Below are positions 4,701-64,000 of a stretch of 64,000 nt of DNA, piece after piece; position 1 is the stretch's first letter; each line of letters begins with the position of its first letter. Made by a program: the position numbers and the translations under genes. The notes below the pieces were generated by a model. That model was not told where the DNA came from. It was given only the letters and a program-made list of their open reading frames with translations, and did not search any database. The stretch is from Physcia stellaris (lineage: Eukaryota; Ascomycota; Lecanoromycetes; Caliciales; Physciaceae): the NCBI GenBank assembly GCA_018902385.1, contig JABSSW010000038.1, forward strand, positions 248,001 to 312,000, written 5' to 3'.

Positions 4701-5157
4701 TATTCCCCTGTGTGCTAAATACTGTCGCTGTTTTCAACAAGACTGACCCCATCGTTATCGGTGTCGATGTCAAGGAAGGCAATCTCCGACTTCTTACCCC
4801 AATTGCTGCGGTGCGAAGTAACCCTGTAACGAATGTCAAGGAGATTGTCAGCCTGGGAAGAGTGTAAGTCTTCGCTATTTGCAAGTACGAGTCAGGTCTA
4901 ATATTCTTCGCAGCTCATCCATCGAAAGAGACCACAAGCAGATCAGTATCTGTAAGAAAGGCCAACCCTCTGTTGCGGTCAAAATCGAAGCTCCCAACCA
5001 ACCAATGTACGGCCGACACCTGGAGGAAAAGGACCAGCTATATTCGATGATCTCACGGCAGAGTATTGATACCCTGAAGGAATTCTACCGACCTGATGTC
5101 AGCAACGATGAGTGGATACTGATCACGAAGCTCAAGAGTTTGTTCGATGTACAATAG
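1749..5157 (+). CDS. FUN12: eukaryotic translation initiation factor 5B (eIF5B), with apparent 1-base frameshift
   Basis: GTPase that promotes 60S subunit joining at the end of translation initiation. Exons 1749-2249, 2313-4863 and 4914-5157 (introns GTACTG..TAG and GTAAGT..CAG). The start begins [10 protein letters not shown], typical of the family. The first ~480 residues are low-complexity Lys/Glu-rich; the G domain follows with G1 GHVDTGKT (near 3350), G3 DTPGHE (near 3543), G4 NKID (3701-3712) and a G5-like SAHTGEG. Domains II, III and IV follow, with the end FDVQ. The frame breaks between 3682 and 3698: the upstream frame stops at 3699-3701, while NKID and everything after lie in another frame. 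One extra C in the CCCC run 3682-3685 would restore a ~1098-residue protein, near the usual fungal length. No splice signals explain the break. A sequencing or assembly error in an essential gene is the likely cause. Confidence 0.93.
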
Positions 5158-14426: not shown

Positions 14427-14499
14427 AAATATCGATTAAATCGACCTTTTCGGCCTGAATAATTCACACATTCTTTTGAATTGCTCGTAAATCGTTCAA

Positions 14500-15560
14500 A
14501 TCAATGTTTCAACACGTTTTAACGATTAAACATCGTGATCGTTTCGATCGCAATTTTTCTCGTTGTTGCAAATCTCATCGTCGTGAAAAATGTTTTTTTT
14601 TCTCAACGACGTTTGCAAAAATCGCATTGAATATTATATTCATCGAAATTTGTTTATCGAAACTATACGAAACATCGAAAAATGTGAAATTTTCGTTGTC
14701 AAAAAAATTCGACGAAATTTGAAAAAATACGATCAACATATCGTTTTTCATGAACGTTTTGATTCGAAATTTTTAATCGACGCTTTCGTGATCAAAAAAT
14801 TGAAAAATTATTTTTTGAATCGATCGTGAACATATTTGAATGAAATGATAATATATTTGTTCGATGATTGAAACATTGTGTGCAACGAATTCACTATTTC
14901 GAAAATTTTAAAACATTATGATATCAACAAAAAAAAATTTCAACGAATCGCTTTGAAACGTTCTCAAATATGTCGCAACGAATACATGTTATTTTTGATG
15001 TCATTAAAAACGATCAATTATACTTTTTAAACGAAATCGCGAATAATGGAAGATATCTTATATTGCAAAAATGAATGATTTGTTTATGAAATCATTTTTC
15101 GAATCATTCGATTTGTTAAACGTTCGAAACGATTCAATTTATTTTTCGTGTACATCAAAAACGATATATTCATTTATCACATCGTTCAAAACGATTTTAA
15201 TCAAATTTTGTTTGAATGATTTTTAAAAAAATTTTTTTCTCGTTGTAATTCATTTTCAAAATCTCGATCGATTTTAATAATGAATAATGTTTCAATACAT
15301 CATCATCGTGACGTTCGAAATCTGTGCGCGAAACACGATGTTCGAATTTTTTATTTTTATTTTTTACTTTTCAAATTTCAATTTTATTGAGAAATTTTTT
15401 TCGATGTTCAAAGTTCATTTGAAACGTTATTATAACGACGTTTTTGTGAACGAAAATCAGTTCGAAACAATACTTCGTCAAGCGATTGAAACATGCAATA
15501 ATTCGAAAACGACTAGAAATCATTTTTCGCATGCAAATATTACGATTCATTAAATTGAAA
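14500..15560 (+). pseudogene. degraded DDE transposase (Tc1/mariner/IS630 type)
   Basis: Broken frames on + carry recognisable pieces in family order. There is an HTH-like segment with IRRNLKKYDQHI (about 14690-14740). Near 15265-15310 is LIMNNVSIHHHRD, matching the second catalytic block (MDN-x-S/A-x-H); its Asp codon now reads Asn. After a frame change in a T-run, FSNFNFIEKFFSMFK (about 15368-15412) matches the block usually written SPDFNPIE, with the Pro codons converted to Phe or Ser and the Asp to Asn. Together with the TA target duplication this supports Tc1/mariner. It cannot encode an active enzyme. Confidence 0.75.
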
Positions 15561-15599
15561 ATATCGATGAAAAAAAAATCATTTAAAATGACGAATAAA

Positions 15600-17930
15600 T
15601 TTATTTTTTTTGTACAACGCACGAATTTCGAATTTTTGCATGCGAATTGAATGCAATGAATAAATTTTATGTATTAAATAAATTAAAATCAATGAAATGT
15701 TCGCAAAAAAACAAAACAATTTGAATGCAAAATCATGTATTTTTTTCGATGTTTTCATTGTCGCATTACATTTTTTGATTTCAAATCGAAAATCACGAAT
15801 TCGAAATTTTTGAATCAAAATATGTTTTCGATTTTCGATTTTATTTGCATGAAAACGTAAAAAATTCAAATCAATTTTGATGTAAAACAACGTTTATTTT
15901 TTTTTATTTTTCGTTCGCAATTAGTTTTTTTATTCATTTTTTTATTTCAAATCAAAAAGCACGAATTCGAAATTTTTGAATCGATGTATGTTTCGATTTT
16001 TCGTAAATTCGATCAAACATCGTGTTTCAAAATCTTTGCGATCAAGCACAATGCATTCAAATTTTCTTTTTCATTTTGTTTCTTTATCGCATGTTTCTTG
16101 CTTTTGATGTTGTTGTATTCGTTCAAAAAAATTTTAATCTTTTCTTGTAAACGTGTTTCAAAATTTCTGAATATGTTCAAATCGTTTCAATCGTTCTTGA
16201 TAAACTTTCGTATCTGTTTCAAGATGTAAAATTCATCGTTCAATAATTCATTTACGTTTTGAAATACGTTTTGATTTTCGAAATTGCGTTCTATTTGTCA
16301 CACGATGTAATTTTTCAAAAATAATGTTTTCGTTTTGTTTTTCGAAAACTGAATCGAATTGCTTTGAAAAATTGACGACGAAAATTTTTCGATCACGTTT
16401 GATTTATTCTTGATCGTCACGAAACGAAATTCAAAAATATTCGAAAACGTGTCAAAATGAAAAAACGACGAAAAAATTGAAAAAACAAAATTATGCGATT
16501 TCGAATGATGAATTGAAACAAAATTGAAATGAAATTGTGATGAATATTGAAATTCGAATTGAAAATCGAATTGAAAAAAATAATACGATTGTTGATCGTA
16601 AAAAAAAAATAATAAAAAACACTTTTTGAAAACGACATAACGTACGAATGTTGATTTGTTTGCTGATACGATGAAAACGAAATTTGAAAAAATTGATAAA
16701 AATAATACGAATTCATTGACGTTTCAAAAGTCGATGATTGTGACGTTGATATCGTCGACGATAATGAAATAAATGCAAATTTCTCGTTGAACGTTTTTAC
16801 AATTTTTTTTTTTTTCGATCGTTGTTTGTTTTCAAAAATTTTTTTCATATCGTATAATTTGAATTGCAATTTGTTTGAAAATTTATCGACAATCGTTTTT
16901 TTCGCAACGATAATATCGTTTCATTCGTCGAATCATTCGTGATGCAAAACATAATGTTTATCGTTTTCGTCACGAAATTGTCAACAATATGATGTATCAT
17001 TTCGACATGTTTGCGAATTACATTTTCATATAAAAAGCATTTTATAATTTTCAAATTTTAATTGTTTTTTTGTTTTTTTACGAAATTTCGCTTTTTTTTG
17101 TTTGACGATGATCGAATTCGAATTTTTTTTTCGTTTTGAATTTTTTTAGCACGTAATTTGTTAACATTTTCATTCGTATCGTTGCTCAATTGCTCGTCAT
17201 CGATATCGAAAAAATGAAAAAAAACGAATCAATTTCAACAATATGACATCGCTTTTTGCTAAAAATTTTTGAAAAAAAGTGATTTCATCTTTCAATCTAT
17301 TATCGTATCGAAACACGATATTAACGATAACATTTTTTTTTGTCATGAAATCGTTGCATAGCAAATTCATGACAAACATTTCAATCGTTATCATCGTTGA
17401 ATTTTTATTTTGCAATGTTTTTGAGCAAAACATATTGCAAATTCGTCGTGCGTTCATGTTTGATCACATTTCGATTTTCGACGATTTTATTGAATCGAAA
17501 TATCGAATCTTCATTGAAATTCGAATAATTGAATGTTTTGAAAATCGCTATTTTGCTCATAATTTTGTTGTCGTTGTACGAAACTAAAATGTTTATCGTG
17601 TAAAACAACGAAAACGTCGACGATCGTTTTTCGATAACAACGAATTCAAAAAAACGAACATCGTTAATGAAAGTCGTGCTATTCGTAATCGACTCGTTGA
17701 ATATGTTGAATATTTTTTTTTTGTTTTTGATGAAATTGTTATTCGTATTTTCATTTTCATCGCGCTTTTTTTTCGACGATTTGTGTTTTTTGATCGCGTT
17801 TGCAACGATCGTTGCGATTCAATTTTCAAATGTGCGATCGTAACAATATGCTCGAGCACGTGTAATCATGATATCACGAATTAATCGATGATGATGATGA
17901 GTTATTGAAATCGAAAAAATCGATTTTATC
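15600..17930. other. unidentified interior of the transposon
   Basis: About 2.3 kb beyond the transposase and inside the inverted repeats. Longer open stretches lie mostly on the minus strand (16417-16869, 16845-17054, 17197-17457, 17593-17859), but the hypermutation has removed Pro, Gly and Trp codons and I recognise no family. It may be a second transposon gene, captured cargo, or an older nested insertion. Confidence 0.4.
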
Positions 17931-17937
17931 GATTTGA

Positions 17938-18008
17938 CATGCAGAGATAAAAAAAAAAAAAGTTGCATTTCAGATTTTCGCGCGGGCGCGGGAAGATGCA
18001 AGCCGAGG
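17938..18008 (-). repeat. right terminal inverted repeat of the 14.4-18.0 kb transposon
   Basis: Inverted copy of 14357-14426, ending GATGCAAGCCGAGG and followed by TA. The last ~45 bp keep their GC content; mutation begins just inside. Confidence 0.93.
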
Positions 18009-27900: not shown

Positions 27901-29001
27901 TTGCTTGAGTGGTGATCTGTTTATGATCTCTGACAATGTGTTGCTTAACATCCTCGAGGTATCTGTTGAGTACATTTTTGAACCTTTGCTGAAGCTCCGA
28001 GCTTGCTAACGGAGGGTCATCAGCAGAAGTTGTAGAAGCGGATTCTTCATCAGTCGAGCTCAAATACCCATGCTCAGGAGCTGCAGCTGTCACTGTCCCA
28101 TTTGTTTTGACGCTTTTGCGGCCTTCTGCGGCAGAGTGGACTCCCAGCACATCCCAACCGAAGCTCTTCACAAATTGAACGATTAGTGGCAAGTTTGTGT
28201 GCTCTTTGTCATGACCGAGAAGATCCTTCAACACTTCAAGTGGGAAGGGCTCTGCGTCGAGTCCCGGAATCGACTTCGCCGCTCCTTGTCCGGGCTTGGT
28301 CTTTCCTACAGCTTCGCTAAGCTTGCTATTTGCTGGACCTGCATTCTCCTTGCCTCGACTAGTCGCATCCTCGGGTCTGACCACATCATCCAAACTTCTG
28401 AGCACTCCAACAAGCCACAATTCTGTCACGACCTTAAGTAACGCCCTCTGCCGAGCTAGACGTTCCTTTTCTTCCTTCTCCCTAGCATCTTGAGGTAGCG
28501 CCTTAAGCTGTGACTTCTCCGGCGTGCTCAGCCCACGACCCAGTAACCATCCTAAGTAGCATGTGTATTGGGAGGGGCCGAACCGTTGGTGTAGCGAGCT
28601 TACAACTTCCACTCCTGCTGCAATGTCCCCAGGCGTCTTCACCTTACAGAGACCTTCATATGTCGCCGATATGACTTCCGACAGATATTTTTGTAGTGAA
28701 AGAGAGCGTAATTCTTGCAGGAATGCAGTTGTGCTTGCAGCCGTTATCGCCGTGCGTAGTCGTTTAATGAAGGCAGTGTTTTTCTTCAGCGAGGAGTCGA
28801 GCGATCCATTTGTATTGAATACCTCTACTCGTTGAATCAACAAAAGTGCACTTCGTTGCTGCTGGATAGTTGTGCTCACCTTCACCGGCCCAGGCTCGTG
28901 TGTTGTTAGCGCGAAGCTCACCTTGAGACGTCGTTAGCCCTTCGGACAGGAATTAGGTGAGTGGGCTGATCAGGATACTTACGCTTCTTCTTGCGATCCA
29001 T
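24966..29001 (-). CDS. NMD2: nonsense-mediated mRNA decay protein Nmd2/Upf2
   Basis: Central bridge between Upf1 and Upf3 in nonsense-mediated decay. Eight minus-strand exons: 29001-28983, 28921-28880, 28824-26711, 26663-26372, 26327-26170, 26121-25834, 25785-25477 and 25421-24966; all phases agree, giving ~1225 residues. The N-terminus MDRKKKRELR then leads to LDSSLKKNTAFIKRLRT, a hallmark of Upf2. Three MIF4G-like helical regions span about residues 30-880. An acidic stretch (EDGDSSSDDADEDE) and the C-terminal Upf1-binding region with FDVPLPMRRAPRET and SLMTKKGNRQ follow. The acceptor for exon 7 (GAAG at 25786-25789) is the weakest; the others are canonical. The tail is Gly/Arg-rich. The start is 555 bp from the divergent SulP gene, so the two may share a promoter. 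Confidence 0.95.
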
Positions 29002-42087: not shown

Positions 42088-43560
42088 TTACTCATGCAAA
42101 GCACTTGTCATGAAATCCATTCCCATATGTCTCTCTGCCATCCCTCTTCCTGCCCTGACACTGCCAGGACTCCTTGGACTGTCGTAGGGATCCAGAGTCA
42201 CTTCGTCACTACAAGGGCTCGGGTCACTGTCGGGGCCATGCGCCCAATCTGCCACGCTCGGTCGACTACTCCGTAGAAGACCGTTCGGCATGACAAGATT
42301 GAGATCTAGGTGAGGTGGAGGTGGAGCGCGGCGACCTCGAATTTGCTGGAAGTCGGCAGTTGAGGGAAGCTCTGTATTGGTGGTGGAAGGTGAGGCGGGT
42401 GAGTTGGGATCGCGAGGTATCCCGCCCAGGCCGTCATGAGGTGGGAATCCAGGTATCTTCTCCCTAGCTGGCCGTTTAAAGGCTGCCGGATTGGTGAAGA
42501 CGTTCGGCTCGTCGTCGACGTGTCCTATGTGTTTCGTCTGGACCGGGCAATGGCGGTCAAGAGAGGGAACCCATTTCAGGCGGCCTTGACTATTCGCTCC
42601 AAAGGACGCAGATCGGGCGTACTCAGAAAAGGTCGACGATGGTCGACTGCTGTCTGTTCGCTTGGGTCTAGGGTGCTTTGCTCGAGTGGTGTAATTTGTG
42701 AAGCGGCTGATGTTGTTCTGCGATTTCGTGCGACCTTTGAGATCTCTCGCCCGTTTCTCTTCGTCGTCTTGCACGTGAAGTTGTTGCGCGCTGTTGACGG
42801 AAGAGTTGGCCAATGTCATAAGCTGATTCAGCACAGCAAATTCGAGTTTCAGCTTTATGCTGTAGACCATGGCTTTTAATGTCGCTTCGATCTCATAATT
42901 CTTCCCGTACTCCATAGTGAGTAGGACAACGTCCATGCCAATTATGACCATGTTGATCCAGATCAGCTGCATCATGACCTTCCGCGTGCGACCGTGGTAG
43001 ACCGGTCTCAGAAGCCGTATAGTCGAGTAAACATAGATACCAGAAATGATGAATTCCTGTATACAAAATGCCGTCATCTGCAGACGTTCGACGACATTGA
43101 AGACGCCGGTAAACTTCTCATGCCTGCTCGAGTTCGAGCCATAAGTGAGAACCGTTGTGGGTATATGGAAACAAAAAGCGTCAACGATAATCATAGCCAG
43201 AACGCCGCGCAAGACCTTTTGTTCCCGAACGACAAGATGCAATCTTGAATAAAGAACGACAGCCTGTCCAGTGACCATGGCATACCAGCCGATGGTGATG
43301 ATGGTGACTGACACATAATCATTCGTCGTAAGTTGGAAGAATTTTAGGAGGAAGCCGAGGGCATGCAGTATGCACCCCCAACTTGATATTAGTAATGACC
43401 AGAAGTAGAGGCCTCGATGTCGTTTAAAGGTGAGGAACACCTGAACGTTCAGCTCGAGAGCATTGTACCATGCGACTGCAGTGAAGGCAGCTATCGCCAT
43501 GAAGGTTGCCTGGTCGAATTGAATGGCAACGCCAGTCACGCCATCAGGTGTGTTTTCCAT
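42088..43560 (-). CDS. fungal seven-transmembrane-like protein (DUF7703-type)
   Basis: Intronless, 490 residues. About seven hydrophobic segments in the first ~270 residues, for example FMAIAAFTAVAWYNALEL, LYFWSLLISSWGCILHALGF, VTIITIGWYAMVTGQAVV, VLAMIIVDAFCFHIPTTVL, AFCIQEFIISGIYVY and MMQLIWINMVIIGMDVVLL. A ~210-residue cytosolic tail rich in Ser/Pro/Arg follows. The pattern (FWSLL..SWG, IQE-F-ISG-Y-Y) matches a large fungal family of integral membrane proteins that I recall as DUF7703, of unknown role and sometimes compared with GPCRs. The family name is from memory and less certain than the topology. Confidence 0.78.
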   Translation of the reverse strand: MENTPDGVTGVAIQFDQATFMAIAAFTAVAWYNALELNVQVFLTFKRHRGLYFWSLLISSWGCILHALGFLLKFFQLTTNDYVSVTIITIGWYAMVTGQAVVLYSRLHLVVREQKVLRGVLAMIIVDAFCFHIPTTVLTYGSNSSRHEKFTGVFNVVERLQMTAFCIQEFIISGIYVYSTIRLLRPVYHGRTRKVMMQLIWINMVIIGMDVVLLTMEYGKNYEIEATLKAMVYSIKLKLEFAVLNQLMTLANSSVNSAQQLHVQDDEEKRARDLKGRTKSQNNISRFTNYTTRAKHPRPKRTDSSRPSSTFSEYARSASFGANSQGRLKWVPSLDRHCPVQTKHIGHVDDEPNVFTNPAAFKRPAREKIPGFPPHDGLGGIPRDPNSPASPSTTNTELPSTADFQQIRGRRAPPPPHLDLNLVMPNGLLRSSRPSVADWAHGPDSDPSPCSDEVTLDPYDSPRSPGSVRAGRGMAERHMGMDFMTSALHE

Positions 43561-46500
43561 CTTGCCGGTGACGGGGAGCCGTGAAGGATGGTAGATGAAG
43601 AGCTATCGGCGCAAGAACTGCGTTTGTCGATACGAATTCATCGGCGTTGACCTTGACCAGATCCCTTCTCTACTTTGCCTGTGATGCTCCCAAGTTGTTC
43701 AGTCTGCTGATTTGAGGTGAAGGAAACCGAGTTGAAATGGTGGTGGCAAGAAAATGATAAGCAGCTCGGGGAAAATATCAACCAAGACGGCGCATTGAGC
43801 AGCCAACGAGAGACCCGAGGAAATCGGACAGACGGTGGTATAAAACTTGCACAGCGGCTTTGGAGAAGTGAAGAGCAGGGATGGGAACGCGTAAAGAAGA
43901 AACGGCCGTAGAAGTAGGGAACACTTGTAGGGGCCCCCTAACCCGAGATGGCCTTAAGCTGCCACACTGGCATCTGCGGGGTTGCTGACATTGGACGATC
44001 CTCAAACACTAAGCATGCAGATGCCTTCTAACGGATGCTTCTAGCTTCAGCGGTAGGGTGAACGACACCCCCATGCACTTGTGGCACACATGATCGTGCT
44101 TTAGCGCTTCCCAAAAGATGGCGAAAGACGGCGACGGCGAGGTCACCTCCACCAATCCTCTCCCTCTAGCGTCGATCCGAGAATGGAACCCTACCTTGGC
44201 CTCACTCAATTCATTGTCTGGCCCAGCCCGAGATTACGAGACGTTTGTGGCGGATTGTTATTGTGACCATGGAGGAACAAATGTCTTCGCCCGTTTTCAC
44301 TGTGCAGTAAGGATTGACCAGCATGGCGTCGCAAGTACAGTTTGCCGTTAGTATCACAATGTATATCCGCCACCCACTTTACCAGACGAATCAGAAAACC
44401 TCCCTACATCTCATTAACGCTCCAGTTCCCAGCTTTCATTGACAATGGCTAAGCCTCGCGTGATGCTGTCGCTGGATTTTGTATCCAATCATGCGTGCCT
44501 ACACACGAACGTCGGCTGAGGTCCGTAGATGCTCCCTGCCTACAGTACCTTTTCGATAGTATGGTAGCACCAGTGGTATCAAGTACCAATCACTTGATGG
44601 CTTCACCAGACATCGCTCATCTCCACGCAATAATCTTTCAGCAGCGGTCATGCCACGCCGAGGTCTGCACATGGCATTCCTCCGACCAGCTTACTCTTGG
44701 CTAGGGTCACATCGCAGCTCCGAGCAGGTCTGGTCGCTGGCCATAGGCAGATGGAGAGTGACTTGATGATGATTAGCCAAATGCAGGCTGTTTCCCGTTC
44801 GAAACTTCACGCGCGTAATTTGTCGCCGTTGGAAAATGGCCAATAGTGAACAACATTAAGGTAGCTCAAGAGCAAATCGGCGATGTCATCCCCATAGCCG
44901 CGTCATTCATTGGCGCGCCAGAGAAGTAAGCCTAGACGATGATCTCAGCCTTTTCGGATGACAAGCGGCGAGGCCCAATTCGCGCAGCGTAACCGAATAG
45001 CTGACCCATCAAAACGATCTGACAATCCGGGGTCTATGCGGCTGAGGCTGCGATTAGACCCGGGGTCACAGAAGTGCATGTCGAGCTCTACAAATGCAGT
45101 TTCAGCGGCTGGTGGATCATACGGAAATTTTATATATGCGGCACTGTGCATGCCATTCATTCAACGACAGGAGCTCCATGCTCGTCATGAGCACAGATAC
45201 TATCAATTTTCCGACTGGCGATATAACAGTCGACGCATCATAGAAAATGCGGGGAAGCTGGTCGTAGGCTCGAGCTTCAGGAGTGTGAGCAGTAATGGCT
45301 TTATAACTCTCTCTCAGCTTTCTCCGAGTAGCTCAGGAAATCTCCTATTATTGCACGTTCACTTGCGGCTCAATAAGATCGAAGATCGCGGCTGAAGGTT
45401 AGATTGTCATATCAGGAATATGCATGCAAATTGATGGCGACCCGAGTGGCGACACAAGGCGAGCTCATGTTTCGAAGCCGGTGGGTAACACTGAAGCAGA
45501 GCTTTGACATGAAGGTCTTTCCATGTCGGTAGGCTACATGTATGCTTTGATGAGGAATGGTGCCCTACTGCAAACTCTGTACATTGTGTCCGTGGTCAAT
45601 ATCATAGCTACCTCGCAGCTCCAACCTGGCAGGTTTCTTGAAAAATTTGTGAAGCAAGTTCTCCAGACTTTTTCGACTACGATCTCATAGTATGATCGGT
45701 CTATTCATGTACTGTCAAGGTAGAGGGGTATGCCAGTGTTTCCTGTGTCCTCTGTATCCAGGCCCATCAATACAGATGCAGCAAGTTCACAGGCACTGGA
45801 ACCTGTGGGAGCATGGGTGGCTCTTTTGAGCGCACGGCTCGTTCATTCTTTCTGTAACGGTCTCTGATGCGCCGTGCTGTGACGTCTCACTCTCGAGTAA
45901 GACATGTAGTACAGAAACATGGCCAAGAGGCCGTATATGCCCTACTATCTGGAACGATGGCGACAGACATTAGTAGTGCATGAGAGCTTCCAAGCTCAGT
46001 TCTCGGCGAAGTCGTTTCAAGACGGCTGAATCTCGATTAGCCGACTCAATACCAACTGTTTCCTCTCTTACCTTGTTGCTTTGTTATGAGCCTCTTGAGT
46101 GCCTCCTGCATTCATCAAAACCATTTCTCAATATACCATGAGTAAAACGATCCCACCCAGTTAATGAAGCCTTTGACAGATTCCGGTCCTTGGCGGTCAA
46201 TATGAGAGGCTAGTTTGGTGTATTTCTATTGAACAAACTTCCTGCACGCAACGTTGGCCTTCTAGATGTTCGTCAAAACAGCCTGTAGATTTCGCTGAAC
46301 TATCCTCCTTGGCGAACTCGAGATGTCGCCAAGGCTTGTGATAACATAGATGGTGTTTGACAGCCGTTAGTACAAGGTTCAACGACCCTTGATACCAGGT
46401 AGTTCACACTCTTGATCACCGTTCCGGGTCATTCTGCATCTCCTCCCTCTTTCTTTCTTCTGTTTGTCCTTCTTTTCTTCTGTTGTCGCTCTGTCAACAC

Positions 46501-48385: not shown

Positions 48386-49396
48386 ATGGCTAAAAGCACA
48401 CTATGCCTGACTATTTTGGCACTCCTGCAGTCTTGCTCTGCCTCGTGGATGCCTCAACGATTGCTTGCTCCCATTGACTCGCTAAGGCCTGCTGGAACCT
48501 CGAATTTGCCTTTGATAATATGGCACGGTCTTGGAGACAAGTAATATCTCTAAAAGCTATTTTCAAGCTATCTTCAAGCACCACTAATTCCGTTATATAG
48601 CTACCAATCAGACGGCCTGCTCGCCATCGAGTCTGTGGTGAATGACACGATTGGCCCAACATATACCTACATCATCCACCTTGACGAGGACGCCTCCGCC
48701 GATCGTACCGCAACCTTCGTTGGCAACCTGACCACTCAGGTAGAACAAGTCTGCAACGATCTAGCCTCTCACCCTGTTCTCTCCAAAGCCCCAGCTGTCA
48801 ATGCTCTTGGGTTCTCCCAGGGCGGCCAATTCCTGCGAGCTTACGTCGAGCGCTGTAATAACCCCAAAGTCGCGAACCTGGTCACCTTTGGCAGCCAACA
48901 CAACGGCATCAGCGAGTTCCAGAACTGCGCCCCGAACGACTGGCTCTGTGATTTCTGGAGTGGCGCTCTCAAGGCGAATACCTGGGATAGTCTTGTTCAA
49001 AGCAAGCTCGTGCCAGCACAGTACTTTCGAGATCCCGAGGATCTGGAATCGTATCTTGAGAACAGCAACTTCTTGGCTGATGTCAATAATGAGCGGGAGG
49101 TCAAGAATAGCACTTACAAGGAGAACATGAAAAAGCTTGAGAACTTTGTGATGTACCTATTTGCGAACGATACGGCTGTTGTACCAAAAGAGAGCGCCTG
49201 GTTTGCTGAGGTCAATACTACCTCTGAGGAAGTTACCAAGTTGCAACATCGGACACTTTATAAAGAAGACTGGCTGGGCTTGAAGTCGCTCGACGAGGAT
49301 GGCAGACTACACTTCAAGACTATAGTCGGATCACACATGCAGTTTGGCGATGATGTCGTCCAGGACGTTGCTAAGAAGTATTTCAAATCACAATGA
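48386..49396 (+). CDS. palmitoyl-protein-thioesterase-like hydrolase
   Basis: Exons 48386-48540 and 48601-49396 (GTAATA..TAG) give 316 residues. N-terminal signal peptide MAKSTLCLTILALLQSCSAS. Alpha/beta hydrolase of the PPT1 type: the family opening PLIIWHGLGD at ~residues 42-51, nucleophile loop GFSQGGQ with Ser ~124, NLVTFGSQHNGI after it, acid Asp ~242 in FANDTAVVP, and His ~297 in VGSHMQFG. The Ser-Asp-His triad is complete and the length matches PPT1 (about 300). The enzyme removes palmitate from S-acylated proteins in the lysosome or vacuole. Several Asn-x-Ser/Thr sites fit a secretory-pathway protein. Confidence 0.9.
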
Positions 49397-53267: not shown

Positions 53268-53272
53268 CGTCA

Positions 53273-53456
53273 TGTTACGAGCATGCCTGGGATCTCGGTT
53301 GGGGCCTTATCTTATCAGCGGGAGTCCACATCGGGCTAGCGCGATCAGGGCTTGGCGCCCACAACCTACTTCTGACATTCGGTCTCCTTGTACATATTTG
53401 CTCCCTAGATCAAATATCCTCGTTATGCTACCTGTTTCCTAGGCATGCGCCTTACA
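53273..53456 (+). repeat. left LTR, nearly unmutated copy
   Basis: Keeps GC-rich blocks such as GGTTGGGGCC and GGCGCCCACAACC. It aligns along its whole length with 54991-55175; nearly all differences are C-to-T or G-to-A in the right copy. Confidence 0.95.
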
Positions 53457-54990
53457 TTATATTTGATCTCCATCGTGACGAGCGATGTAAACTTCACACT
53501 CGTTACTGTGACGATCAACGAGTAAAAAAACAAAATCGTTGTCGATTCGTGACGATTGCACACTTTCAGCACGAAATCTCACTATCAATCAGCAATGACG
53601 ATGATTCACTGTCTTTAACACAGCAAGATTTCTCGTACAGAATTAACGAGATTAACGATTACTCGATCAAATTTTGCAAAGATTGCTCGTCGAAATACGC
53701 GAATAATTAAATAAAATCGTCAAACGCTCGTAAAGATACACGAAATTAAAAAAAATCGTCAGTTGCTCGCATGAAAGCGAATATAAACAAAACTCAATCG
53801 TTCGTAAAAATACGCGAATGTTTAAAAAAAAATCGTCAGAATGTGAAATTTTTTTGAAAATGATCACGAAACATGACGTTTTCGTGAATTGAATGAAAAA
53901 TTTACATAAAACATTTTCAAATCAACGAAACGATTCAATTGCAAATTTTTTCGAAATCAATTAATCAATGAGTTTGCTTGAACGACATTTCAATCAATAA
54001 TCGATTTTCTTGTTCGTCGAAATCAGTCGACATTCAATCAATAAACGATTTTCATGCATTTTCGAATCAGTTCGTTTTCAAATGATTTTTACAATAATCA
54101 TCTTTTTGAAGCGTTGAGACATCGCTTGATAAAAAAAAAAATAAAAATCATTCACAACAATTTCACATCAAATTATCAAATCAACAAACAATCATTCAAA
54201 ATCATCAACAAAATTTTCGATTTTTAGATTTGTTACATTCTCAGCATGATCGAGAAATTTACGTTTCGTTTCGTTTCGTTTCGTCAATTTCAACGAGTCT
54301 GTTCGTTTAATGACATTCAATGAATTCGTTACAAAGATTAATGATTTTGTTTCAATGAAATTCTTAATGAATCGACTAAAACGATTTCAATATGCATGCG
54401 TTAAATTTTTTACATTTTTACGAATCAAGAAAGAAATGAATTTATTACACACGATACGAAAACAATGACATGAAAAAAAAAAAAACATCGATTCAATAAA
54501 TTTGTCACACGATCAAATCAATTCGTTTTTTTCGCAATCGTTTGTTCGTCGTCGTCAATGATTTTCTGTTTTCGAATTTGCAATCAATCAAAATCGATCG
54601 ATTAATAAAAATTCGAAAAGTTCAAATTCGAAAAATTTGAAACAATATACGTTTGCGAAATCGATATCGTTTTGTTGTTTCTGTTTCTGTTTTCGTTTTG
54701 TTTTGAAATATCGATCGTTTCATTATATTAATTTGCAAATATTTTCGCGATCAAGATTTTCAACAAGATTTTCGTTTTCGCAATTTTCGCATATATCTTT
54801 TGTTTTCGTTTTCGCATTTTTTGTTTTCGCATTTACTTTTTCACGTTTATCGCATTTGTTTTGAAATTTTTAACGTCAATCATGATCAGTCAAATATCTG
54901 AGTCATCGTCGATGATTTTTTCGCAATGTCGATCGATCAAGAAAAAGAAATAGTCGTTTCGAAACGAAACTTGAAAAAAAAAAAAAATAA
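53457..54990. other. interior of the short LTR element, hypermutated
   Basis: AT-rich, no CC or GG beyond about 53480, no recognisable coding sequence. It contains a short GTTTC repeat at 54264-54285. Confidence 0.6.
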
Positions 54991-55175
54991 TGTTACGAAC
55001 ATGTCTGAAAATCTCGATTGAAATCTTATTTTATCAACGAAAGTTCACATCGAATTAGCGCGATCAGAACTTGACGTTCACAATTTACTTCAAACATTCG
55101 ATTTTCTTGTACATATTTGCTTTTTAAATCAAATATTTTCGTTATGTTATTTGTTTTTTAGACACGCGTCTTACA
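54991..55175 (+). repeat. right LTR, hypermutated copy
   Basis: Mutated version of 53273-53456. Every CpC of the left copy (either strand) is changed; CpG and nearly all CpA sites are kept. Confidence 0.95.
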
Positions 55176-55414
55176 CGTCACGCAATTGAACGTTTAATGC
55201 GCAATGCAAATTGCGCAACAAACATTACATATTATACATTTAATTCGTTAAAACATTGTAACTTCGTATCGAATCAACAGTTTGTTCTTTTTACATTGTT
55301 AAAATTCGAAATATTCGTTACAATAATGAATTGCGCAATGTGTTTGATTTGACAATTTTTGAATTTGAAAATGTAAAAGAATGTGCGTTCACAAAACGTT
55401 CACATTGTTGCGTA

Positions 55415-55643
55415 TGTTACGAACATGTTTGACAAGTAAATTTGACAAATAGATAATTGATATGATATGTGATCGAACAACGAATTATGTTTTAATTTTA
55501 CGTTGAAATTAACGTGATTTGAAATTTGACGTCGCATATTGTTTGCAATTTCAACATTTTGTATTTATTTGTTTTTGCAAACTTATTGTTTTCGTTTAAT
55601 TAATCAATAATACGTTTATTCAAACACGACTCATGATATTACA
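55415..55643 (+). repeat. LTR-like repeat, copy A
   Basis: Starts TGTTACGAACATG and probably ends ATATTACA. It aligns with 59404-59642 and similarity continues to about 55735, so the exact 3' end is uncertain. Its first bases resemble the LTR start at 53273. Confidence 0.75.
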
Positions 55644-55904
55644 ATAAGTTTTCAATTTTTATCGCTCGTCGTGATACGCGAACGTTCAAAAATAAAATTT
55701 CAAATTGATTAAGTTTTTTTGACGAAACAAACGATTCAAAAAGTTTTGCTGATCAAACAAACGATTCAAAAATTTTTTTGACGAAACATTTGACGAAAAT
55801 CGTGAAATAACAAATCGAATTTTCACGCAATCGACGATAAAAAACGAAAATTGACACGATTAATTTTTTTTTCTTTTATCATTTTCAATTTTTCATTCTC
55901 AATT

Positions 55905-57330
55905 ATGACTCGAAATCATCACGAAACAATTCTTTTCGAATTTTCTATTTCGATGAAACAACGTTTTAAAACGTTACGTGTCAACGTGAATCGTATGTTG
56001 CATGAAATTAACGACAATTTTTTTGACGAAAATTTCGTTGATCAATTCAAACGTCGTCGATTTGTATCAACAATCGAATTTATAAAAATGAAAAATGACG
56101 AAATCATTTATTTTTTGAATATCGTCATTATCGATCAATTGAAATGATGAATCAATCATAAAATCGTCGATTTTTAAAAAAATTTGATCGATTACGAATC
56201 GATCGTGACAATTATTTGAACGTTTTGACTTAATATCAAAATTTGTACAATATTGTCAACGTCGATCGTGACGAATTGATCAATACGAATGTCGAATTAA
56301 ATGAAATTCGTCGAAAATTGAATATTTTGAAAAACGAATACGAAAAACAACGTGATTTATTTTTGATCAAACAAAAAAATTACATTTTTTTGAAAAAAAA
56401 TCACGACGTTTTGTTGATCAAAACTCGCGATCGTGCACGAAATTCTGACGTCGACGATGAAAAAAACGACGATAAAATTAACGTAATTAATTTTTTTCAA
56501 AAAAACAAACGACGTTTCAAAACACATTCAGATTTTTTTAAATTCATCGATGAAATAAAATCTATTTGACGTGTTTGAAAAACAAAAATACACGATAAAA
56601 TGACGATCAATATTGATCATTACGACACGATCATAATCGCAATCATTATCGTGATTGATTGAATTGAAAATGATATCGATGATCACATACAATCGATTCG
56701 TGATATTGATATGAATCATTTCAAAATTTGACATATGATGTTGAAATTTTTGAACATTATTTACGAAAATTTTGATTTCAAACGCAATATGCGTAATCAA
56801 TTTCGAACATTGATCATGAATATTCAAAATTTTCAATTTTTTTATTTCATTTTTTTTCGTTTTAGCAATTCAATTGATTATAACGAAATCATCAAAATCG
56901 AAAAATTGATGAACAAAATTTTTGAAATTTGAAAAAAACGATGAATGTATATTCACGTGAATTTATCACGTTCGATAAAATTCGAATCATTTTGCAACAA
57001 ATATACAATCGACAATCGAATTTTCGAAAAAAAAAAATCGCGACACGTCAACAACGTTTTGAATTGTTTCAATTCAAATCAATTTTTGTCGTTTCGATTT
57101 CGATGTTTTTTACGAAATTTGTCATTTCGATTTTTTTCGTGAAATTTACAATTCATTTTCATTTCAACGTTGAAATCAAAATTCGTGATTCGATGATCGA
57201 CAAATTAATCGTCACGAACAAATGTTTCACATGTGATGAAATCGATCACGTATGAAAAAAATGTTCGAACGTTCACAAACATCAAAAACGTCATTGACAC
57301 AAAATGCAAATGTTTTACATGAACATAATC
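55905..57330 (+). pseudogene. gag remnant with CCHC zinc knuckle
   Basis: Begins MTRNHHETILFE at 55905 and continues through several broken frames with charged helical stretches. The zinc-knuckle pattern C-x2-C-x4-H-x4-C is visible at about 57225-57270 (CFTCDEIDHV then, after a stop, KKC). Family-typical Gly positions now read Asp, as expected from G-to-A change. Confidence 0.75.
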
Positions 57331-57359
57331 AACGAATCGAACGAATTTGATTCGAAAAA

Positions 57360-57760
57360 TTGATAATTTATATCAAAAACGCGATTGATGAATGTTTAAA
57401 AATTTTTTTTATTTATCATGACGAATTGTTTGATTTTTTTGTCAAACGATTTTTAATCATCAATTGTACGTTGTCATTCAACGATAATAAACATAAATTA
57501 AAAATTTTAATAAACATTGATGCAATTGATTATGTTTTCATTGATAAAGAAATTGCGCAATTTGTATGCAACATGTTGAACATGAATTTCGTATTTTTAT
57601 TAAAATCGAAATTCATTATCGAATTCGACGATCGTCAAATTTTTCAATAATTCATGTCATTTATTTCAAATTGACAATTGATTTGCATTTCGAATTGACA
57701 ATTTTTTTGTTCATCATCGATTTGAATAATCATTCGATAATTTTAAAAAAATCGTGAATG
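57360..57760 (+). pseudogene. retropepsin-like protease remnant
   Basis: Around 57505-57560 the frame reads ILINIDAIDYVFIDKEIA, aligning with the retropepsin core whose active triad D-[ST]-G is here altered to N-I-D by G-to-A and C-to-T change. It is non-functional. Confidence 0.7.
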
Positions 57761-58091
57761 AACAAACATGAAATTATTTTGAATATAATTTACGATAAAT
57801 TGATTTTCAAATCGTTCAAATGTAATCATCATGACAATATATTTATCAAAGCAATGTAAATTCGACGTTTGAAAATTTTTGATTCAAATCGTCGATAAAA
57901 CGTATTTAATTGACGTCGCGATGTTTTTTTATCGAAAACAAATAACGCGAAACATATTGTTGCAATAAAATTTCGATATACGATTTTATTTCGTTCACAA
58001 TTTAATTTTTCAACGTTTTATGTACAAAACGAATCAAACGTATTCGATTTAAAATGTTTCGATTGTTTTATTCATTCGAAAATCGATCAAA

Positions 58092-59400
58092 ATGACAAAT
58101 CGTTCATCGTTAAATCAAATCATTCAAAAATTGATATCACAACGATTACGAAAACGACATTCGTCAAAAAAAAAATTTGAAAAAACAACGCAACAAACGT
58201 TGAAAAATCAAAAACAACAATTCGAAATTTTTTCATTTTCGAAATTGAATTTAAACGATTCGATGAATATCGCGATGATTGATGCGATTTTTTTTTGTTT
58301 ATTCGTCGATTTCAAAATCGAAAACAAAAAATGCAATGTTTTTCATTACGATCAATCAAATCGATTTCGCATTCAAAACATTGCGAACAAATTTTGAATC
58401 GTTGAAAATTGTCATCATGATCAAAAAATTTTTGAAACACGAACAAATCAAGTCGATTTTTGAACGTATAATGAAAAAAATATCGAAATATTTCAAATAT
58501 TTGTTAATAATATTCGATTTTCAAAAAACAATTGAATTGTCGTCGCATCGAATTTACGATCACAAAATCGAATTTTTAAACGATAACAATACATTGTTTC
58601 GAAATCGAATATATTTTTTGTTCGAATTCAAATTTCAAAAATTCAAAAAATATTTGAAAAATAATTTTCAAAAAAATTTCATTGTATTCAATCAAACAAC
58701 ATACGTTTCGTTCGTTTTATTTGCAATCAAATCAAATGATCAATTACGTTTGTGTGTGAATTATCGACGATTTAATCACATCACGAAACGCAATCGATAT
58801 TTCATTTTTTTGATCGAAAAAATTTTGATCAAAATGCAAAATTGCAAATATTTAATCAAATTGAATATTATATCGATTTTCAACAAATTTCGAATGAAAA
58901 AAAAAATGAAAAATTCATTATTTTCGTTATTTTCATGAAATTATACAAATATCGAATATTATTTTTCGAATTGATCAACGAATTCGCGAATTGACAACAT
59001 TACATGAACGATTTATTGTTCAATTTTTTGAACGATTTTTGTCAAATTTATTTAAATGATATTTTCATTTACAACAAATTCAAAAAAAAACACATCGTTC
59101 ACGTTCGTAAAATGTTGAAAAAATTCAAAAAAATCGAATTGCAAATGAATATTGAAAAATGCGAATTTTTCAAAAAAAATAGCATTTTTGAACGTCATAT
59201 TATCGATAAATGATTTTCGCATGAATTCGAAAAAAATAAAAATCATTGTCAATTGAAAACGTTTTACAAATTTGAAAAAATGCAAATTTTCGTGAATTTC
59301 GTCAATTTTTACAGACGATTCATTCGTGATTTTTCGAAAAAATTCGAATTTTCACTCGAATGATCAAGAAATTCGTGAATTTCGAATGAATTGTTAAATT
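58092..59400 (+). pseudogene. Ty3/gypsy reverse transcriptase remnant
   Basis: Recognisable RT blocks in order: QLRLCVNYRRFNHITKRN (about 58740-58800), KYLIKLNIISIFNKFRM (about 58848-58900), the catalytic YxDD block read as IYLNDIFIYNK (about 59047-59080), and a later segment near 59285-59330 with VNFYRRFIRDFSK. The second Asp position of the catalytic block reads Asn. Multiple in-frame stops; inactive. Confidence 0.82.
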
Positions 59401-59403
59401 CGA

Positions 59404-59642
59404 TGTTACGAACATGTTTGACAAATAAATTTGACAAATGCTTGACAGATAAGTAGTTGATATGATATAATCGAACAACGAATTATGTTTTAATTTTACG
59501 TCGAAATTAGCGTGATTTGAAACTTGACGTCGCACATTGTTTACAATTTCAACATTTTGTATTTATTTGTTTTTGCAAATTTATTGTTTTCGTTTAATTA
59601 GTCAATCAATACAGTCATACAAGCACGACTCATGATATTACA
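59404..59642 (+). repeat. LTR-like repeat, copy B
   Basis: Direct repeat of 55415-55643 with about 10 bp of length difference and scattered transitions. Flanks do not give a matching target duplication with copy A, so the two are not simply the ends of one element. Confidence 0.75.
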
Positions 59643-59960
59643 ATAAATTTTCAATCTTTATCGCTCGTCGTGATACGCGAACGTTCAAAAATAAAATCTC
59701 AAATCGATCAAGTTTTCGTGAAAAACAAACGACGAAAAAGTTTTTCGTGAAAAACAAACGACGAAAATCGTGTAATTACAAATCGAATTTACACGCAAAC
59801 GACGAAATTTTCGACGATAAAAAACGACGAAACGACGACGATTTTCTATTTTTTTCTTATTTTCTCGAGATGACTCGCAGTCATCATGAAACAACTTCAC
59901 TCAATTCATTTCGTCAAAATCTGAATATTGACGAAATACAAAAAAACGTTGAACAAATTG
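59404..59960 (+). mobile_element. Ty3/gypsy retrotransposon B, 5' end only
   Basis: LTR-like copy 59404-59642, a leader similar to that of A, and the start of a gag-like frame at 59870 (MTRSHHETTS) that is near-identical to the first residues of A's gag and then diverges. It breaks off at about 59960. Confidence 0.75.
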
Positions 59961-60786
59961 TAAGACTCGTATTAGAAATAGTATAGTTTAATGAATTATT
60001 GACATCAGAAATGTATAGCTTGAAATGTAGTATATTGATTTATTAATCGCTACAAAACAGACTACGTTTTGCAATTGCTTTTTATTCACATTCTATTTAT
60101 TCAATCGTACGAATTCGATCGATTTCGATTGACAATATGAGTTTGTTGAGTTTATCGTTGATCGAATTGTAAAATGATTGAGATTGATTTTTTTCGAAAT
60201 CATTCGAATTTCGATAATCGAATTGCTTGACGAAATGCGAATCGCATTTTCGAAAATTTTGAATTTTTATTTTTTACATACGTTTTTTTTTAAGCATCGA
60301 AATTTCTTGAGATCAACATGTTAACAAAAACTTTGACGTATTTTGTTTGTTTTGACGTGTTTTGCTTGTTTTGATTTTGCATTGACTTGAAAAATCATTA
60401 TGATCGTGATTTTCGCATTTCGAAATATTTTTGTTCGAATTCAATAATCAACTTGCGTTAAAAATCTGAGAAAACATCTTCTTGAATGATTCAAAAAAAA
60501 CATAATTTGATGAATCAATTGTTTGCTGTTTTCATGATCGAATGTTTGATTTCGTATAATTCACAATTTTCGATATGATGATTGACAACTGATTTGTTGA
60601 CAAAAAATTCTGAATTCGAACATCTTTTTATTTTTTCATTTTTTTATTTCGAATATCAATATCGATATCATGAAAAAAATGTGTAAACGCGATAAACGTT
60701 CATTAATCGCGATCGCATTGATATTCAAATTTCGAAATTTTTTTTTTATTTCATTTCACATTTTTATTCAACAATTCATCGTTCGA
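59961..60786. other. AT-rich junction region without recognisable coding sequence
   Basis: Between the end of element B and the first recognisable part of element C. The first ~120 bp (to about 60080) contain AG, CT and TA steps that are rare elsewhere in the block; the rest is like the surrounding hypermutated sequence. Confidence 0.45.
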
Positions 60787-61718
60787 TCAAATCGAACAAC
60801 AATTTCTGAAAATGTTTTTGACACGATTCAGCTTTTCATGCGTCGTAAATTCTAAACAATAAATAACACACAAAGTCTTGAAAACGAAAAGTGTGTTAAC
60901 ATGCAATAAATATTTCAATTCATTTTTTTTTTGACTTTTGATGATTTGTTTCTTTATTGACGTCAAATTTTTTCGAATTTTCGTTATGAAATTGTCGCAA
61001 AATTTTTCGAAAATGTTTGACAAACGATGCAAATTTTCAAATCGCGTTTTCATAATTTTTTCATTTCACGAGATAATAAAAATCGAATTCGCTGTAAAGT
61101 TTGTCTGAAATCTCATTTGTTTTGAAAATCTTGCTGTTTTTGATGATTTCGATTTCATAAAACTTTTTCGTGATTTTCATTTTCATGTTTTCGTCGAATT
61201 CAATATTTTCAACTTGATAAAAAAATTCAGAAAAATGTGACGTATGCGCGTTTTTTTTTTTTTTTTAAAATTGAACTTTTTCAGAAGAAAAACGTGAAAA
61301 ACGTCGTGAATGCGTCAACGTTTGAATAAATTTAAACGATAAATTTGATTTTTTATAATTTTTAAAATTTGAAATGATTCAAAAATTTTCATTTCAACTT
61401 TTTGTTTCGTTTAGTCTTGATGTTTTTATCGTTCAAATTCACGTAATTTTCGACGTTGTATGACATTGATTTCGTGCGTTCGTTCTTATACATCGTTTGT
61501 TGTTGTTGTGTCACGAATAAATTGTTTTTCAATATTCGAAATAATTCAGCTAAATGTTCAGCGTGTTTTTTTGCGAATTTGAATTTAATTTTTTTGTTTC
61601 ATGTTTTCTCGAAAAACATGCGAAATGAATATTCAAGCATAATTTCGAACGAAAAAATGTCTGTAAATGCATGTTTGCTGTTGTTGTAAACGAATTCGAT
61701 CATGAGCAACAGTTTTAT

Positions 61719-62024
61719 TCAGTCATTTTGCTCGAAATTGACGAAAGCACGAAAAAATTGTTTCATGACGTTGTTCATTCGCTCGATTTGTTCATCAATT
61801 TGAAAATGAAAAACGATTGACAATTTACGCTTGATTTTCAAAACGTAACACAATGCATCGTTGTATTTGAACGTGAAAATGAAATTTCTGTCGATGACGA
61901 TTGACGAAAAAAAATCGTGAAATCGAATGACTTCGCGAAATAAAATTTCGATCAGATTTTCTGCGAAAATCGTCTTAATTACTGATATGTAATGAATCAT
62001 TTTCGTTAAACGATTCACAATCAT
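61719..62024 (-). pseudogene. integrase core remnant
   Basis: Opens IVNRLTKMIHYISVIKT and contains SSIVIDRNFIFTFKYNDAL and HFQIDEQIERMNNVMKQF, which align with the rve core blocks (the D-R-L-T-K opening, the S-D-R-G block and the H-P-Q-T-D-G-Q block). Key Gly, Pro and Asp codons are converted. Confidence 0.85.
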
Positions 62025-62129
62025 TAAAATCGAATCGTAAATCGTTTCATTTCATGTTTTATTTGAAAAAAATTCTGTCACGAAATTCATGAAAAAATCA
62101 ATTCACTTAAATTCAAAAATCGAAAAAAA

Positions 62130-62360
62130 AAAAAATTCGTCGTATGATTTGTGTCGTGCAATTTTGTTTCGTTTGCAAACGACGCATGTTTCACAATGTT
62201 TTTTGATTTGCTGTCGCATTTCAAAAATTTCGATAAAGTTTTGATTCGATCAATAATATTTTCGACGTATCAATTTCAACGTTCGTTCGATGTCGAAATG
62301 ATCAACGAGCGAATTATCGTGATGTGCACGAATAACGTTTTCACGCAAATTTTTTGAAAT
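62130..62360 (-). pseudogene. integrase HHCC zinc-binding remnant
   Basis: On minus the frame shows RAHHDNSLVDHFDIERT followed ~30 residues later by HCETCVVCKR, i.e. the His-His-Cys-Cys set of the retroviral-type integrase N-terminal domain, with one stop between them. Confidence 0.75.
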
Positions 62361-62697
62361 GTAAACGACATCGTCGTAATACAAAAATTCATTTTTGTGT
62401 TGTCAATTGTTTGTTTCTGTTTTCGAAATAATTAATTTTCGACATATTTCAAAGACGAATTGATCTTTAACGATCAAATCACGAACGAGATTCAACAATG
62501 AAAATGTTGACTCGTCGTTATATGTCGTTTTCTTTCGTAAAACAATCTGTATTCGAACTTTATGCATTGCGCACTCAAATACAATCGTTGATTTTAACAC
62601 AAAAATTCTTCATTCTATGAATGTCACGTTTGACTTTTGTTCAATCGAATGTTTCGAATTTTTTGAATTTTTTGAATCGAATATTTTCGAAACAACG

Positions 62698-63057
62698 TTA
62701 ATTGAAATTCGATTTCGCTTTGAATTTTTGAATCAAATGTTTTCGAAAAACGCTGATTGATTCGATTGTTGAATCATCTAAATACGATCGACGTTTCATG
62801 TTATGCATCGCATTCATGAATCGTTTCATGACATGTATCGCATTCATGACTTTGATCGCATTTATTCGCATTTTTTCGAAACGTTTCGAGTTTGCGATCA
62901 ATGATTTCTGCAATTGTCTCAAGATTTGACGATTGTTTTCGACGTTTTTCTCAATAATCATCATGTGATCAAATCGTTTTGAAAATTCGTCAACAAAATT
63001 CTTGTTATCGAAACGATAATCGATTAAGAAATTATATCGATTCAATTTTGAATTCAT
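62698..63057 (-). pseudogene. RNase H tail and linker remnant
   Basis: Starts near LNRYNFLIDYRFDNKNFVDE, which matches the end of gypsy RNase H (pattern W..-Y-F-x-I-x-Y-x-x-G-x-x-N-x-x-A-D-x-L-S-R) with the conserved Gly lost, followed by a charged linker toward the integrase. Confidence 0.65.
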
Positions 63058-63559
63058 CGAATTTGACGTGACGACAATTTAATTGTGATCATAAATTGTT
63101 TCAAATTGCGATAATCAATAAAAACAAAAATTTGTTTTTTTGCGTTTTCGAAATAGTGTTTTCATTGTTTGAACGAAATCACAATAATCAGCAATTTTTT
63201 GTCATGAATTTCGTAATGACATTCGATCGAAATCAACTTGCGCGAAAATACGTAACAAAATGTCAATGATTTTCGTCGTTTTGTTGACATAAAATGATTT
63301 CAAAAATTTTGTCGAATGCGTCGATTTCGACTCGAATAACACGCTCGAAATTGAAATGACGTAAAATTGATGTTTCGATAAATGTTTTGCGAAATTGTTT
63401 GAAAATTTTCAATGTTTCGCTGATCAGAAAAATGTGAATATTCGATAATTTGTTGCGATTTCGATTCTGATTTCGTTTGCGTTTACGAATATTTTTTCGA
63501 AATTTTTATTTTTTTTTAGCATAACGATCAAAAATTCAACAATTTTACTGAAATGTTTA

Positions 63560-64000
63560 ATGAATCGTCGATAAAAATTAACGATGTCGAGAAATTGCAT
63601 GATGTCGAAAACGTTGCGAAATATTGATCACTGTTGAATAATTTCGATTTTCTTGTTTTGCATTTTCATTTTTTGAAAAAAACGACGAATTCAAGAAAAT
63701 TTATTTCGTCAACGAATCATTTGCATTTCTCAAAAACAATGTATAGTTTATTTTTTTAAAGCGATCAAGAATTCATTTGACATTGTCGACATGAATTTCG
63801 ACGTTCATCGAATAAATTATTATATCATTCAAATATACAATGACGTTAATATCGAAACGAATCGCTAAAATTTTATTGATGAAATTTTGAAACGTCGTCG
63901 AAACGTTAATGAAAAAAAAAAAAATACGTTATATTCGAAATGATCATATCGAATACGAAAAGTCGTTTTTCATTCGTTTTCATGCTTGATACGCAATCGA
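63560..64000 (-). pseudogene. reverse transcriptase remnant, partial
   Basis: On minus, the frame reads TTFQNFINKILAIRFDINV then IVYLNDIIIYS, the RT palm block with YxDD read as YLND, as in element A. Continues past the end of the window. Confidence 0.75.

Follow-up and report, generated by a model that had tools for sequence, protein, structure and literature searches.

The closest described counterpart of the mutation pattern reported here is RIP in Neurospora crassa, in which RID, with DIM-2 acting in a second pathway, changes C to T in repeats on both strands, and in which, as excerpted from PMC5496416, the order of targets is CpA>CpT>CpG>CpC. The same excerpt places CpA and CpG about level in Trichoderma reesei, followed by CpT and finally CpC (first in the DNA described below), so that RIP dinucleotide preference can vary between species. 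Signatures at CpA, CpT and CpG are reported in the excerpted part of PMC4352252, with CpT leading in Magnaporthe oryzae and in one Botrytis strain. That part also lists one or two copies of RID/Masc1-like genes in species with a CpA signature, a second accession standing under Botrytis and Sclerotinia in a table whose column is ambiguous. Elsewhere, passages describe CpA together with CpT in Anisogramma (PMC10998396), a dominant CpT in alignments of RIP-capable fungi (PMC7882544), and a leading CpA in rRNA pseudogenes (PMC5555474) and in Mycosphaerella graminicola (PMC4522978), and DIM-2 itself is described with a CpT preference in a portion of PMC13297926. CpT as a main RIP target has therefore already been reported (PMC4352252, PMC10998396 and PMC7882544, as excerpted). 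RIP-like defences share a preference for CpA according to a survey of 1,239 genomes of fungi (PMC12543289).

Several fungi resemble the present case in part. Botrytis cinerea, Sclerotinia sclerotiorum and M. oryzae likewise target C before a pyrimidine, but CpA is their other main target, and CpC has no signature among those listed in the excerpt of PMC4352252. Methyltransferase-linked C-to-T bias in transposons, of the kind proposed here, is described in the same excerpt for Microbotryum, Tuber and rust fungi; these target CpG, which in the basidiomycetes is linked to Masc2-type genes, whereas CpG is spared here. For Monilinia, a passage of PMC8959702 citing Clutterbuck 2011 reports CpC>TpT double changes, as for Botrytis and Sclerotinia; CpC is thus involved as it is here, but alongside CpA>TpA change of the classical type that was expected. 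The basidiomycete Rhizoctonia solani AG8 shares with the present case that CpC is the densest CpN class of SNPs, with a spacing of 214 bp over the whole genome (CpA 422, CpG 370, CpT 491) and 301 bp in repetitive DNA (CpA 490, CpG 583, CpT 539), but the section is headed as CpG-biased, SNPs are denser in genes than in repeats, and the densities carry no polarity or normalisation in that passage (PMC4014442). With Rhizoctonia and Monilinia as possible hints to the contrary, no CpC-led RIP is reported in the titles, abstract openings and passages of the papers listed in a literature search that covered mostly papers outside subscription.

The DNA analysed here is a 64-kb stretch of Physcia stellaris, referred to in its entirety as the window (Table 1). 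Like N. crassa, this fungus combines RID-like and DIM-2-like genes, a preference set by the 3′ neighbour, and AT-rich blocks amid normal DNA. The order of targets is CpC>CpT>>CpA, CpG, nearly the reverse of that excerpted for N. crassa (PMC5496416), and TpA/ApT falls (0.385) instead of rising. Domain searches place seven further genes or gene fragments in the window, and an Rfam scan and a bacterial-mode tRNA scan of its 64 kb found nothing.

Table 1. Features of the window, in window coordinates.
Feature	Position	Strand	Basis or remark
Left target-site duplication, CGTCA	53268..53272	.	5 bases outside left LTR
Left LTR, GC-rich, practically without mutations	53273..53456	+	Alignment, substitution count, GC-rich copy L038
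Element interior, hypermutated from ~53481 on	53457..54990	+	Final CC/GG of the window at 53470; changes against the GC-rich copy start in earnest at ~53481
Right LTR, hypermutated relative to left LTR	54991..55175	+	Alignment and substitution count
Right target-site duplication, CGTCA	55176..55180	.	5 bases outside right LTR
AT-rich block, 0 CC/GG (~330 expected from base composition)	55176..64000	.	Dinucleotide count
Second AT-rich block with this signature; a single CC/GG, at 15048, within ~3.5 kb	14455..17983	.	Dinucleotide count
Pieces of an IF-2/EF-Tu-type translation factor, which we take to be probably eIF5B	2313-4867		Domain search
Septin fragment	7816-8478		Domain search
Chitin synthase (Chitin_synth_2)	21088-22632	-	Domain search
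MIF4G-domain protein, presumed to be possibly a UPF2-type factor	26675-28933	-	Domain search
STAS-domain end, presumed to be of a possible sulfate transporter	31473-32207		Domain search
DUF7703 protein	42088-43602	-	Domain search
Palmitoyl-protein thioesterase	48554-49396		Domain search

A preliminary description of the window had claimed, from hand counts, that the two LTRs of one element align end to end and differ almost solely by C-to-T and G-to-A changes, at about 28/28 CpC and 12/25 CpT but at hardly any CpA (about 1/24) or CpG (0/20). Pairwise alignment recovered the two LTRs over 184 and 185 bp. A machine recount on both strands, in which sites were classed by 3′ neighbour and the left copy was the assumed ancestor, returned the claimed counts for CpC (28/28), CpT (12/25) and CpG (0/20), and 1/23 for CpA. 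From left to right there are 22 C>T and 19 G>A changes, the remaining differences being 1 T>A, 1 T>C and one inserted A. Fisher tests separate CpC from CpA (p = 1.5e-13), CpC from CpT (6e-6) and CpT from CpA (8e-4). Since the CGTCA on both flanks is a perfect 5-bp target duplication, both LTRs belong to one insertion and the left LTR is the partner of the right one. The left LTR is also 92-93% identical to both LTRs of a GC-rich copy elsewhere (among 40 of 72 candidates scored), and these two results together speak against its membership of another subfamily, which the preliminary description had named as a threat to its reading. Two CpC/CpT sites of the left LTR (53375 and 53383) read changed relative to the GC-rich copy L038. 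From 53471 to the window end, the last 10.5 kb, there is not one CC or GG; as mutation sets in only just inside the element, it has left the left LTR nearly intact.

The same order, CpC > CpT >> CpA, CpG, was obtained when C-to-T changes were tabulated by neighbour in further genomic copies of the element, both within 16 LTR pairs and across 15 copies. For the LTR pairs, the window's included, no ancestor was chosen and only sites reading C or T were counted; with both directions summed, changes number 136/439 at CpC, 113/735 at CpT, 4/685 at CpA and 7/519 at CpG, and transversions occupy 11 of 2855 columns. Without the window pair, the other 15 pairs give 108/411 for CpC vs 3/640 for CpA. The 15 copies were compared with one real GC-rich copy, L038. 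A column entered the count if at least 17 of 21 columns around it showed a match or a transition; sites at which the copy reads neither C nor T (70 CpC, 30 CpT, 72 CpA and 94 CpG) were excluded. The elements compared are 1.8-2.1 kb long. They come from 17 fetched loci and the window; L038 served as the reference, and neither comparison, of copies or of LTRs, includes L041 and L054, in which the element is matched only in part. Changed sites amount to 1590/3603 for CpC, 636/2930 for CpT, 151/2754 for CpA and 162/2853 for CpG, and the reverse direction, which measures background, gives 98/1874, 60/2534, 112/2775 and 126/2814, respectively. CpA (5.5% v 4.0%) and CpG (5.7% v 4.5%) are thus close to background.

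Individual copies span a wide range against L038, with CpC losses of 8% to 86%, CpG losses of 3-11% and CpA losses of 1-9%, except in the window copy, which has lost CpA at 26/168 sites (15%) and CpG at 18/181. CpA is incompletely spared in heavily hit copies. L038 and L046 are nearly unmutated though relatives exist, from which it follows that the action of the mutator is incomplete or old. The lightly mutated elements L039, L046 and L048 are flanked by CC-free stretches whose edges lie within ~20 bp of the element ends, a setting that suggests that they probably inserted after their surroundings had mutated.

DNA transposons carry the same spectrum. In a transposon recognized by Pfam DDE_1, which we take to be pogo-like, the changes from the open copy L055 to the broken copy L061 comprise 219/268 CpC, 182/283 CpT, 19/286 CpA and 17/296 CpG, beside 57 transversions in 2425 columns. 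A second DDE_1 group, read from L060 to L057, gives 41/41 CpC, 122/155 CpT, 25/299 CpA and 10/297 CpG. L056/L059, an older pair in which 73 of 1119 columns are transversions, shows noise in either direction (CpA 14/141 and 22/151, CpG 24/128 and 14/117). These six copies were drawn from ten DDE_1 loci, of which L064 overlaps L060 and L058, L062 and L063 have no full partner, and all four were left out. The preliminary description had held that a dominance of CpA-to-TpA change in other repeat families would count against it; the DNA-transposon copies show instead the same CpC-led preference.

The kind of stop codon produced points in the same direction. Where the open copy L055 has a TGG codon, the broken copy L061 has TGA in all 8 cases within the frame compared, and not one of 27 other codons (10 CAA, 9 CAG and 8 CGA) has become a stop. 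Among 150 scored of 527 RVT_1 (reverse-transcriptase) candidates, internal stops number 250 TGA, 33 TAA and 3 TAG, and 10 matches in this scored set are free of stops. An excess of TGG-to-TGA change is predicted by GG-to-GA change, whereas CpA change would give TAG and TAA; CGA-to-TGA by CpG change could also yield TGA, but CpG is spared. Two RVT_1 matches, G000:C5:1166521-1166997 and G000:C12:60312-60788, have identical scores and lie in open frames of 1024 and 1151 aa. Judged by these two long frames, the mutator may have spared some autonomous elements.

Base composition bears the imprint of the same preference over longer distances. In the long AT-rich block that begins at the right end of the element, observed/expected ratios are 0.21 for CpT, 1.28 for CpA and 3.36 for CpG; in the normal DNA at 18001-53000 CpC stands at 0.94. 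Within this block, 39 further matches at 92-97% show that 58001-60000 is repetitive over its first 1.4 kb; its last 0.6 kb matches one place at 80% together with a 48-bp piece, both statements applying to 40 of 769 candidates scored. Outside the window, 500-bp bins were taken from ~124 kb of loci picked for the window element and the methyltransferase genes, namely 17 element loci and 3 methyltransferase loci fetched from the 44-Mb, 147-contig genome. Bins with GC <33% (40 kb) have observed/expected ratios of 0.05 for CpC, 0.25 for CpT, 1.29 for CpA and 3.21 for CpG; at intermediate GC (13 kb) the four values are 0.43, 0.81, 1.13 and 1.66, and at GC >42% (71 kb) they are 0.93, 1.05, 1.07 and 0.95. 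In GC-normal DNA, which is DNA selected by its GC, CC stands at 0.93-0.95 of expectation. Decay of methylated CpG is thereby out as a cause, given CpG ratios of 3.0-3.5 in AT-rich DNA and the 7/519 of the LTR pairs.

Classic RIP indices read these AT-rich blocks as RIP-free, with the wrong sign. TpA/ApT is 0.385-0.389 in the AT-rich blocks of the window vs 0.70 in normal DNA, and (CpA+TpG)/(ApC+GpT) is 1.35-1.38 vs 1.25. Published thresholds, as excerpted, set TpA/ApT at >=0.89 in one source and combine >1.15 with <=0.75 in another (PMC7882544). The process is accordingly not RIP of the canonical CpA type: TpA/ApT is low, not raised, and CpA changed at only 4 of the 685 sites in the 16 LTR pairs. 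C:G-to-T:A changes nonetheless lie far above other changes, on both strands, which is what RIP in the broad sense comprises.

A search for RID/Dim-2-type genes, proposed in the preliminary description, found at least three open cytosine methyltransferase genes, one DIM-2-like and two RID-like; Pfam DNA_methylase matches fall in three places in the genome. The predicted proteins measure 1206-1219 aa (DIM-2-like, by the splice acceptor chosen), 934 aa (RID-like) and 513 aa (second RID-like), in frames that are open after removal of predicted introns and whose exact ends, with one splice acceptor, are our choice. Identity between the two RID-like proteins is 40% in the methyltransferase part and 34% in an N-terminal part, and each shares 26-28% identity with the DIM-2-like protein. 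The names RID-like and DIM-2-like are our own assignment, made from sequence motifs alongside this mutual similarity. For the second RID-like protein, the 45 sequences listed by a PDB search are all cytosine methyltransferases, among them DNMT1, HhaI and DNMT2; NCBIfam matched it to the general model dcm and, weakly and well under the cut-off, to PRK10458. RIP in the broad sense calls for a RID-type methyltransferase gene, and the two open RID-like genes provide it.

The spectrum CpC > CpT >> CpA, CpG is established for the families compared, an LTR element and DNA transposons, on the basis of 16 LTR pairs, 15 copies, two DNA-transposon groups, ~40 kb of AT-rich bins and 150 RVT_1 matches. The RIP-like mutator first described as preferring CpC and sparing CpA and CpG is upheld by these data in a refined form: CpT is a real second target, and CpC > CpT (CpY) is a more accurate statement of the preference than CpC alone. 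It is likely that a methyltransferase drives the changes in a process of the RIP type. Such a mutator of repeats, preferring CpC > CpT (CpY), is in our view the best explanation of the whole, and we hold it with good, though not full, confidence.

Whether CpC and CpT changes share one origin can be judged from their ratio and their strands. The common hazard ratio of CpC to CpT is ~2.7, but it runs from ~1.5 to 4.7 among the 15 copies, and this heterogeneity (chi2 41.5, 14 df, p 1.5e-4) implies that more than one process may be mixed. Two overlapping mutators, a RID-like enzyme responsible for CpC and a different one, such as a DIM-2-like enzyme, responsible for CpT, would explain such variation, and three methyltransferase genes are at hand. 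In L053 and the window copy, moreover, CpC and CpT lean to opposite strands, and the DIM-2 preference for CpT described in the excerpt of PMC13297926 would fit such a division of labour. The copies with the strongest strand bias speak for one enzyme instead: in L044, CpC is changed at 57/149 sites on the plus strand vs 8/111 on the minus strand and CpT at 28/117 vs 2/98, in L045 the figures are 109/146 vs 34/108 and 50/119 vs 4/84, and in L043, with the bias reversed for both, 20/126 vs 49/92 and 7/108 vs 16/81, so that CpC and CpT share their strand in all three. CpC strand bias reaches p < 1e-8 in these three of the 15 copies and p < 0.05 in six, the weaker cases (p 0.004-0.04) being L053, L040 and the window copy, while nine copies are without bias; over all 15, the biases of CpC and CpT are correlated (Spearman 0.57, p 0.027). 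Across all copies, changed CpT also adjoins changed CpC of the same strand, as one enzyme with a graded preference would have it: CpT is changed at 478/1303 sites where the nearest same-strand CpC is changed and at 141/1554 where it is not. For CpT beside a changed CpC, the within-copy Mantel-Haenszel odds ratio is 2.86 if the two share a strand and 1.62 if they lie on opposite strands; the controls give 1.62 and 1.05 for CpA and 1.31 and 1.17 for CpG. This pattern suits bouts of one enzyme along a strand, as in an acute enzymatic event, and we consider two separate mutators somewhat unlikely.

A slower course is the next alternative, in which a DIM-2-like non-CpG methyltransferase keeps the CpY of repeats methylated and passive deamination converts them over generations, with no RIP event at all. 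A DIM-2-like gene is present, the graded mutation levels among copies suit a clock, and according to the review passage in PMC13297926 Neurospora DIM-2 prefers CpT where the context is non-CG. Here, however, it is CpC that leads, not CpT, and both the one-strand bouts of L044, L045 and L043, which take CpC and CpT together, and sharp edges such as that at 53470-53481 point to acute events. Slow decay is, on balance, improbable. In L053, L042, L051, L047 and the window element, changed and unchanged CpC are clustered (numbers of runs far below those of 500 shuffles), forming tracts with edges inside the elements.

The flanking bases constrain the chemistry. At C followed by C, the 5′ base makes little difference in the LTR element (ACC.46, CCC.41, GCC.42, TCC.49) and a modest one in the transposon (from 42/63 at ACC to 40/45 at CCC); with A or G on the 3′ side, the rate is.03-.09 for any 5′ base (CCA.06, CCG.05). 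In a CC pair it is the first C that changes; the last C of a run does so mainly if T comes next. A rule that resides in the 3′ base points to a methyltransferase (CpN) and away from a deaminase. Deaminases, too, typically produce C-to-T hypermutation and one-strand bouts, but they and UV damage read the 5′ neighbour. With that neighbour of minor effect and the last C before A or G nearly spared, an APOBEC/AID-type cytidine deaminase, or a dipyrimidine agent such as UV, was rejected as very improbable; a search with APOBEC_N gave 0 matches, but control searches were equally silent, so that it is uninformative. That the pattern is an artefact, made by the alignment or by hand counts, which may mislead, or by a left LTR from another subfamily (it differs by 6-7% from its nearest relatives among 40 of 72 candidates scored), is hardly credible and was rejected in view of the perfect CGTCA duplication, the agreeing machine recount, and the recurrence of the pattern in 15 further LTR pairs and in DNA transposons.

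For the RIP-type, methyltransferase-based mutator, a course of events can be proposed. Repeated DNA would be recognized, repeats presumably making up all of the targets, and the putative mutator, a RID/DIM-2-type cytosine-5 methyltransferase, would act along one strand or both, probably in the sexual cycle. C would be converted to T where the next base is a pyrimidine, at CpC first and at CpT second, and CpA and CpG would be nearly left alone. One of the two RID-like genes may carry the altered preference. A single RID-like methyltransferase with changed 3′-base recognition, which would direct RIP to CpC and CpT instead of CpA, is our tentative reading of the enzyme responsible, one that is possible but that we advance with less than even confidence.

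A genome whose most heavily mutated repeats are practically free of CC yet keep their CpA and CpG contradicts the shared CpA preference concluded from the 1,239-genome survey (PMC12543289) and suggests that RIP can exchange its target base. The long-standing question of how RID chooses cytosines becomes testable in a fungus that has two RID-like genes and natural copies ranging from nearly untouched to saturated. CpC-type change breaks genes mainly through TGG to TGA, not via CAA or CAG, and indices built on TpA/ApT and CpA would miss it. If a switch in recognition by a RID-like enzyme is indeed the cause, natural RIP would cover all four dinucleotides, with the preference set by a small part of RID, and the CpC form may be running unseen in lineages that TpA-based indices class as free of RIP.
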